Positions 16,717 to 18,522 of a stretch of 64,000 bases of DNA are shown one piece after another. Position numbers and translations under genes: made by a program. The stretch comes from Anaerolineae bacterium (GTDB taxonomy: Bacteria; Chloroflexota; Anaerolineae; Aggregatilineales; Phototrophicaceae), in NCBI GenBank assembly GCA_019912965.1, contig JAIOHM010000139.1, positions 1 through 64,000 of the forward strand, in the 5' to 3' direction. Numbering within the stretch: position 1 is the first letter of the stretch; each line of letters starts with the position of its first letter. Below the pieces are notes generated by a model. It saw nothing but the letters and a program-made list of their open reading frames with translations, was not told the origin of the DNA and searched no databases.

Positions 16717-18522
16717 ATGTTCAAGATCGGTCTGTTCGCGCAGCTATGCCAAGTATCGGTGTCGGCGCTGCGCTACTACGATGAAATCGGTCTGCTCAAA
16801 CCCGGTCATGTAGACCGCTTCACAGGCTACCGCTACTACACCGCCGATCAAGTCCCCCGTTTGAACCGCATCACTGGTCTAAAAGAACTCGGTCTTTCGC
16901 TGGAAACCATCGATGCCCTGCTGCGAGAGGATGTCCCCACCGCGCGGCTTTACGACATGCTGCGCGAAAAAGAACAGGGTTTGGAACAGCACATCGCCGA
17001 AAGTCAGGAACAGCTTCAGCGGGTGCGGGCGCGCCTCAAGCAGCTTGAATGGGAAGTGAACACGGATGGCATATCCGGTTACGTCAATCTCATCGAGTCG
17101 AGTGAAAGGACGAGCGAAATGGGTACACAGGGACGGGTTTCACAAATTATGGGGCCGGTGGTGGATATTGAATTCTCCAACGCCGTGCCGGCCATCTTCG
17201 AGGCGCTGCATTTGCCGTTGGAAGGCGGCGGCGACCTGACGCTGGAAGTGCAGATGCACTTGGGCAACCGGGAAGTCCGGGCGTTGGCGATGGGCAGTAC
17301 CGACGGGTTACGGCGCGGGATGGCCGTTTATGGGGCCGGTTCGCCGATTCGCGTTCCGGTAGGCGAGGCGACGTTAGGGCGCATGTTCAATGTGTTGGGC
17401 GAGCCGATTGATGGTAAATCCGCACCCGCATCGGGCACACCTTTACGCTCGATTCATGCCGTCGCGCCGGAATTTGACGAGCAGTATAAGAAAGTACAGG
17501 TATTTGAAACCGGGCTGAAGGTGATCGACCTGATTGCACCGATCACACGCGGCGGGAAAACGGGAATCTTCGGCGGGGCTGGCACGGGCAAAACCACCAT
17601 CATCACCGAACTGATTAATTCGATTGCCACCCAGCACAGCGGCCTTTCGGTGTTGGTCGGCGTGGGTGAACGGACGCGCGAAGGTACACAGTTGTACGGG
17701 GATATTATTGACGCGGGTGTGTTGGATAAAGTGGCGATGGTGTTCGGGCAGATGAATGAACCGCCGGGGGTGCGTTTGCGGGTGGCGCTTTCCGGCGTGA
17801 CGATGGCTGAACATTTCCGCGATGAAGGTAAGGATGTGCTGCTGTTCATTGATAATGTGTATCGCTATTCGTTAGCCGGGGCAGAGGTTTCCGCGCTTTT
17901 AGGGCGTTTGCCTTCCGCAGTTGGCTATCAACCGACATTGGCAGACGAAATGGGGCAGCTTCAAGAACGGCTGATTTCCACCAGCACGGGCGCGATTACC
18001 TCCTTACAGGCGGTGTTTGTGCCAGCCGATGATTATTCCGACCCTGCCCCTGTAGCCGTGTTCACGCATCTGGACGGGACGATTGCCCTGAGCCGCGCGA
18101 TCTTCGAGAAAGCCTTGTTCCCGGCGGTTGACCCGCTGGACAGCAGCAGCCGGATTCTGACGCCGGATATTGTGGGCGAGAAGCATTATCGAACGGCGCG
18201 GCAGGTGCAAAAGGTCTTGCAGCGTTACAAAGATTTGCAGGACATCATCGCCATTCTGGGCATCGAAGAACTGCCGGACGAGGACAAGGTGTTGGTGATG
18301 CGGGCGCGCAAGATCGAGTTGTTCCTCAGCCAACCGTTTTTCGTGGCCGAGCGTTTCACAGGCAAGCCGGGGCGCTATGTGCCATTGAAGGATACGGTGG
18401 AGGGCTTCCGCATGATTCTGGATGGCGAATTGGATCATATCCCGGAGCAGTTCTTTTATCTGGCCGGGCCAATTGGGGATGTGCTGGCGCGGTACGAGGG
18501 ACAACTACAAAGTACCGAGTAA
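16717..18522 (+). CDS. MerR-family DNA-binding domain fused to F1-ATPase beta-subunit-like protein
   Basis: A single uninterrupted frame of 601 residues. Residues 1-70 are a MerR winged helix ([28 protein letters not shown]), and about 76-112 are its coiled-coil dimerisation helix. After a linker, residues 135-598 are a complete ATP synthase beta-like chain: start [19 protein letters not shown], Walker A GGAGTGKT (286-293), catalytic-Glu motif GERTREG (317-323), Walker B LLFIDN (375-380), and EELPDED (517-523) in place of DELSEED. The adenine-pocket Tyr of LYPAVDPL-type sequences is Phe here (LFPAVDPL), and the Val of the usual GGAGVGKT is Thr. No other ATP synthase genes are nearby. An internal ATG at 17119 with AAGGA 11 bases upstream could yield the beta part alone. 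It may be a nucleotide-sensing regulator, or a beta subunit with a tethered repressor. Confidence 0.85.

Follow-up and report, generated by a model that had tools for sequence, protein, structure and literature searches.

According to the passages of PMC9909328 on ligand sensing, regulators of the MerR family sense metals, redox state and drugs. In the multidrug members BmrR, EcmrR and BrlR, a winged helix-turn-helix and a dimer helix are joined to a GyrI-like drug-binding domain, and a palindrome lies in a 19-20 bp promoter spacer. TipAL/TipAS of Streptomyces and SkgA are autoregulated MerR systems in which, as described in the portion of PMC7762955 that concerns them, two start codons yield both the complete regulator and its effector in free form; that effector is a small antibiotic-binding domain and not an ATPase. 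Mycobacterial ClpC2 duplicates part of an essential ATPase and controls the gene that encodes it. The part duplicated is the Clp N-terminal domain rather than a nucleotide-binding subunit, and the sections of PMC10030653 dealing with it describe no MerR domain. Among relatives of ATP synthase, the G1-ATPase beta subunit MMOB1670 is an F1-beta homologue with a large N-terminal addition, thought to be a structural hook in the gliding machinery, and its gene stands in tandem with an alpha homologue (PMC8406192, in its treatment of this subunit).

Here we describe a gene from an uncultured member of the Chloroflexota that has the winged helix-turn-helix, dimer helix and spacer palindrome of BmrR, EcmrR and BrlR, but in which F1-beta replaces their GyrI-like domain. 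Like ClpC2 it contains a copy of an essential ATPase and may regulate its own gene, and like MMOB1670 it adds a large N-terminal part to an F1-beta homologue; its two products, unlike those of TipA, are predicted. A surface-level search of the open-access literature found no description of a MerR-F1-beta fusion.

A MerR domain joined to a complete F1-beta-like half

The window, a stretch of 64,000 nucleotides (contig JAIOHM010000139.1 of assembly GCA_019912965.1), carries the fusion as an open frame of 601 codons with zero stops in the assembled sequence (16717-18522). The features of the locus are as follows.

15819..16574, minus strand: divergent neighbour, a VIT1-family membrane protein (Pfam VIT1), not seen beside the other fusions
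16616..16647, plus strand: MerR-type promoter, TTGACT-20 bp-TAGACT, shared by the three genus fusions
16619..16639, no strand: imperfect palindrome ACTCTCAACCTGCTTGAGAGT in the spacer, with 9/10 arm positions pairing
16706..16711, plus strand: ribosome-binding site GAGGGG of the full-length start, duplex energy -8.5 kcal/mol
16717..18522, plus strand: merR-atpD fusion gene, 601 aa (ORF, Pfam and TIGR01039 matches)
16717..16929, plus strand: MerR winged helix-turn-helix, residues 1-71 (Pfam MerR_1 3-71)
16939..17058, plus strand: dimerisation helix (coiled coil), residues 75-114, modelled as helical in a region of low confidence (Pfam MerR-DNA-bind 48-109)
17053..17118, plus strand: linker, residues 113-134, fast-evolving, pLDDT < 50 at 109-135
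17105..17110, plus strand: moderate ribosome-binding site AAAGGA of the internal start, -5.3 kcal/mol
17119..17121, plus strand: internal ATG (Met135) where beta naturally begins, with Met at the junction in 4/4 fusions
17119..18519, plus strand: complete F1-beta-like half, residues 135-601 (TIGR01039), 73% identical to the genome's own atpD
17572..17595, plus strand: Walker A GGAGTGKT, residues 286-293
17668..17670, plus strand: catalytic Glu318 (presumed) of GERTREG, with GERTRE kept in 4/4 fusions
18016..18018, plus strand: Phe434 in place of the presumed adenine-pocket Tyr; Phe in 4/4 fusions, Tyr in 39/39 canonical betas

Pfam places MerR_1 at residues 3-71 (57.2 bits, cut-off 21.6) and MerR-DNA-bind at 48-109 (25.5 bits against a cut-off of 25.4), followed by ATP-synt_ab_N at 141-205, ATP-synt_ab at 266-478 and the C-terminal domain at 483-573. 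The NCBIfam model for atpD, TIGR01039, matches residues 138-592 with 714.6 bits (cut-off 462.85), and the barrel, nucleotide-binding and C-terminal domains of AtpD are all present; the MMOB1670 model, NF045858, scores 485.6 bits, below its cut-off of 850. The in-frame joining of a MerR DNA-binding domain to a complete F1-beta, as claimed in the preliminary description, is borne out by the open frame and by the Pfam and TIGR01039 matches, and the assembled sequence has no stop or frameshift across 17050-17120. The MerR-F1-beta fusion gene is real.

Among solved structures, EcmrR and BmrR come nearest in sequence to the DNA-binding half. The Pfam scan gave no match to a GyrI-like drug-binding domain in the fusion, and such a domain is present in three of the four sister MerRs scanned, starting at residue 120-121. 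The beta half begins after the linker at residue 135 in the window fusion and at residue 123 in the most distant one (G083), near the GyrI-like start of the sister MerRs, so the exchange sits at a domain border. The AlphaFold model, built on an alignment of 27 ordinary betas and the window protein, shows residues 75-114 as a 40-residue helix and has low confidence at 109-135; its beta part superposes on solved F1-beta chains, and its MerR part is of low confidence because the alignment contained no MerR relatives. An alternative alignment with MerR fragments from viral contigs looked misaligned and was dropped.

Compared with AtpD, the fusion has the whole fold, Walker A and B, the Glu of GERTREG and 73% identity to the genome's own protein, but differs in its N-terminal DNA-binding part, its place off the atp cluster, its own promoter, its long branch and the Tyr434Phe exchange. 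It is a MerR regulator in build, although not a multidrug MerR, since the sensor domain is absent, and an F1-beta in fold, although not in gene context. The canonical F1 cluster lies on another contig (C155), where beta and alpha were found by search and gamma and epsilon frames were read by eye; this canonical atpD rules out the fusion gene as the only atpD of the genome, and relatives share the fusion. Reading by eye of the ORF lists, short frames left out, agreed with the earlier claim that no other ATP synthase gene is near the fusion, and no second alpha-like gene was seen beside it. Distant betas of 49-52% identity, possibly belonging to an alternate F1Fo ATPase, occur in G013:C480, G020:C232, G045:C21, G050:C471 and G056:C112.

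On the 3' side, about 1 kb (18523-19508) holds short imperfect direct repeats and no clear gene. It is followed by a gene that joins an FHA domain to the receiver domain of a response regulator (19509-20384) and then by genes that resemble rpsL, rpsG, fusA and tuf by eye. A STAND-like protein with HTH, NB-ARC and TPR parts is encoded at 47190-49535.

The nucleotide site of the beta half is well kept. Across 39 canonical betas, 187 columns do not vary, and all four fusions known to us (see below) have the same residue in 169 of them; the fused betas also retain the Walker A Lys/Thr, GERTRE and FIDN. From the known roles in F1-beta, we take Glu318 of GERTREG to be the catalytic Glu and residue 434 to be the adenine-pocket position, which is Tyr in canonical F1-beta. 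Among the substitutions common to the four fusions, Phe replaces Tyr434, Val replaces Leu361, Leu replaces Ile419, and either Thr or Ile replaces Val294. Three departures from the canonical motifs had been singled out in the preliminary description, and they differ in weight. The Tyr-to-Phe exchange in the adenine pocket, found in 4/4 fusions and 0/39 canonical betas, sets the fusions apart; Phe at this position is compatible with adenine binding. GGAGTGKT does stand in place of GGAGVGKT but is not unique, with Thr in 3 of the 39 canonical betas compared, and EELPDED for DELSEED is present but is a small change, given that the canonical betas of the genus examined already read DELSDDD. The N-barrel and the C-terminal domain are the less conserved parts of the fused beta: between the window's genome (G000) and G003, N-barrel identity is 60% for the fusions and 85% for the canonical betas, and C-terminal identity is 75% against 82%. 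The part of PMC5380711 on the catalytic interface locates the arginine finger of F1 on alpha. Lacking this finger, the beta half of the fusion should bind ATP rather than hydrolyse it.

Distribution and descent

Full-length fusions, that of the window included, are present in 3/17 genomes of the genus (the window's, G002 and G003), in 4/98 genomes of the family, where G083 adds a second genus, and in 4/154 genomes of the order. Identity to the window fusion is 76% for G002, 75% for G003 and 66% for G083, so that homologues keeping both halves in one protein do exist. A profile of the MerR half and barrel, run over the 154 order genomes, returned the same four at 353-412 bits; the next match, at 168, is an ordinary MerR. 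Wider samples, 396 genomes from the class and 400 from the phylum, yielded no further fusion, and the window's genome alone matched; at most seven candidates per genome were scored in these searches, at E <= 1e-44, a setting that a very divergent fusion could escape. In a scan of a contig database, among the best 80 of 591 confirmed relatives no match begins before query residue 60 and most begin near the beta N-terminus. Long open frames lie in phase ahead of several ordinary betas. Six such loci were taken, of which one (L071) left nothing, and the five usable upstream stretches gave no MerR match beyond chance, whereas the fusion, as a positive control, did.

A tree of 43 betas groups the four fused halves in one clade with support of 100/97. 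This clade stands beside the 30 canonical betas of the family, which have lower support at their own fork (93/79), and its members have longer branches than the canonical proteins, with G083 flagged as long. Between G000 and G003, the fused betas have also diverged further (80.0% identity) than the canonical ones (89.1%). For the G002/G003 pair, the NG86 method gave a dN of 0.101 and a dS of 1.375 for the MerR half, and a dN of 0.060 and a dS of 1.807 for the beta half; this is the sole pair with a usable dS, itself high, the others being saturated or undefined. Linker identity is 9-55% between the genus fusions; against G083 it is 17%, with 12 residues aligned.

In both trees, G083 falls apart from the other three fusions, whose MerR halves group together. 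One origin of the MerR halves is thus not supported by either tree, and a single clade that includes G083 is not rejected (p-AU 0.127). From the fused-beta clade and its long branches, the beta paralogue looks old and now patchy. In the reading we favour, a GyrI-like sensor was replaced by an F1-beta paralogue early in the family; spread of the fusion between genera by transfer is possible.

The fusion's own promoter and candidate internal start

Promoters with 19-20 bp spacers are a known target type of MerR regulators, which both repress and activate at them, according to the promoter sections of PMC9909328. Such an arrangement precedes the fusion gene. The hexamer geometry occurs at four sites in the window, of which only 16616-16647 has an 8/8 dyad, and a first-order Markov model gave no 8/8-dyad site of this geometry in 60 random windows. 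The promoter is near-identical in G002 and G003. Further upstream there is no clear alignment, and on the 3' side conservation is partial among the genus fusions and close to full between G002 and G003. The G083 fusion has a related promoter with a 19 bp spacer, compared with 20 bp in the genus, and palindrome arm pairing in the four fusions is 9, 8, 8 and 8 of 10. The exact palindrome occurs once each in the window's own genome, G002 and G003, always 5' of the fusion. A further operator scan used a pattern derived from the site itself, and its chance figure describes the rarity of the string only. A MerR paralogue of the same genome (L004) has a similar promoter site with another centre and a 19 bp spacer.

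This known target arrangement suggests that the fusion autoregulates through the predicted operator in its own promoter. The preliminary description offered an ATP/ADP-sensing repressor or a beta subunit reporting its own assembly; the role of regulator gains support from the MerR-type promoter, but "repressor" is too narrow for a family that acts in both directions at such spacers (PMC9909328, same sections).

Other targets were considered and set aside. In four atp-locus stretches the best operator match was 13-15 of 21 positions (14/21 at the genome's own locus), and the idea that this operator also governs the atp cluster was rejected. Immediate neighbours differ among the four fusion loci (VIT1; NmrA/DUF2867; a protein without a Pfam match; a cupin), so neither a shared adjoining target nor a conserved controlled gene set was seen across them; by eye, the G002 and G003 loci have one nearby gene in common. 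An operator-like palindrome with three mismatches (G000:C79:58599-58619, L137) lies 69-89 bp before a glyoxalase-family gene, a suggestive site for a second target. It is not conserved: the gene was not found in G002, G003 or G083, and its homologue in G012, a genome with no fusion, has no such site by eye. The other three-mismatch match is inside a coding frame.

An internal start at 17119 that would allow both forms from one mRNA had also been proposed. The Met is kept in 4/4 fusions, and a strong or fair ribosome site accompanies it in the relatives: -10.3 kcal/mol in both G002 and G003, first of 32 and of 27 ATGs, and -7.9 kcal/mol in G083, second of 44. In the window the site is moderate, at -5.3 kcal/mol and rank 6/32 among ATGs of the gene in any frame, and a later in-frame Met145 has -6.0 kcal/mol. 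Two products from one mRNA are plausible on these grounds.

A proposed regulator with an energy-enzyme subunit as its input

The fusion may be an autoregulated one-component MerR switch with an F1-beta paralogue as its input domain, acquired by early replacement of a GyrI-like sensor, and we give this reading an even chance. At the level of sequence, it is built on the MerR domain, the helix that follows, the variable linker, the complete beta with its nucleotide motifs and the palindrome in the spacer. It is supported by the same architecture in four genomes of two genera; by the fused-beta clade, a dN far below dS and the columns kept; by the GyrI-like domain at the place of beta in three of the four sister MerRs scanned; and by the promoter-operator kept in the genus, with a related 19 bp-spacer site at G083. 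Against it stand the MerR halves, whose common origin is not supported with G083 apart, as well as the differing neighbours with no conserved set of controlled genes, the draft sources, the one usable dS pair and the ordinary internal ribosome site in the window. One would expect many genomes to carry a general energy sensor, and the presence of the fusion in so few genomes of the family argues against one.

In such a switch, a dimer of the fusion would bind its own promoter and hold it inactive in one state. Ligand binding by the beta half would change its shape, and the ligand-bound dimer would then twist the long-spacer promoter into a usable form, leading to more of its own synthesis. Through the kept internal start, part of translation would yield a free beta-like protein, as with TipAL/TipAS. 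With Walker A, the catalytic Glu and Walker B kept and the arginine finger missing, the likeliest ligand is Mg-adenine nucleotide with or without free alpha; an adenine nucleotide, perhaps together with alpha, is probably what is bound. The fuller proposal, in which a whole F1-beta serves as the sensor and nucleotide binding or alpha capture is passed on to promoter twisting, with a free beta-like subunit from the same mRNA, is a tentative one that we would put below even.

The main rival of a nucleotide-sensing switch is a decoy of the TipA/ClpC2 kind, in which the beta half would imitate F1-beta and catch an F1 inhibitor or another beta-binding molecule, and binding would induce the fusion's own promoter and flood the cell with decoy. 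The likeness of the DNA-binding half to the multidrug regulators EcmrR and BmrR, the confinement of the exact palindrome to the fusion's own promoter in three genomes, and a lone, patchily distributed gene that evolves faster than canonical beta are all consistent with this, and an internal start would supply free decoy. TipA, as an autoregulated system with two start codons (PMC7762955, in the part cited above), and ClpC2, which copies part of a drug target and represses its own expression (PMC10030653, likewise), offer precedents. Another genome of the order, from a different family, encodes a 439-aa protein with the same kind of MerR domain fused to Clp_N (L173:454-1770, minus strand; G147:C4), a second MerR joined to part of a housekeeping ATPase and reminiscent of ClpC2. 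We know of no inhibitor for these organisms, however, and the nucleotide site is better kept than a mere decoy surface seems to need; we consider a decoy unlikely.

More doubtful still is an alternative, feedback-controlled beta, in which the fusion or its free product would join alpha and gamma and the MerR part would signal the presence of unassembled beta by turning its own gene down or up. The retention of 169/187 invariant columns would fit, and the beta N-terminus lies at the outer top of F1, where a tag need not block assembly. MMOB1670 of Mycoplasma mobile, with 299 extra N-terminal residues, is found in an F1-like complex (PMC8406192, in the part on its composition). Yet the fused N-barrel and C-terminal domain are less conserved than their canonical counterparts in G000 and G003, no additional alpha-like gene was seen next to the fusion, and the operator was not found in the four atp-locus stretches. 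An assembly artefact or a decaying, functionless chance fusion is highly improbable: all four sources are draft genomes (88-99% complete, 5-10% estimated contamination), but the same architecture in three other genomes, and thus in four separate assemblies, rejects an artefact, and the kept promoter-operator and a dN much smaller than dS for each half in the G002/G003 comparison speak against decay.

In this fusion, a duplicate of an essential enzyme subunit has taken the place of a MerR sensor domain, and the domain that would receive the input comes from the central energy enzyme of the cell. Taken with the MerR-Clp_N protein, the fusion suggests a wider class of target-mimic regulators. If the proposed switch or the decoy is correct, the state of an F1 nucleotide site, or molecules that attack F1, would be coupled directly to transcription with no second messenger, and the former would provide a ready nucleotide-responsive MerR module. 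Standing in a genome with a normal ATP synthase gene elsewhere, the fusion suggests an undescribed way to link the energy enzyme, or its binders, to gene expression in uncultured Chloroflexota.
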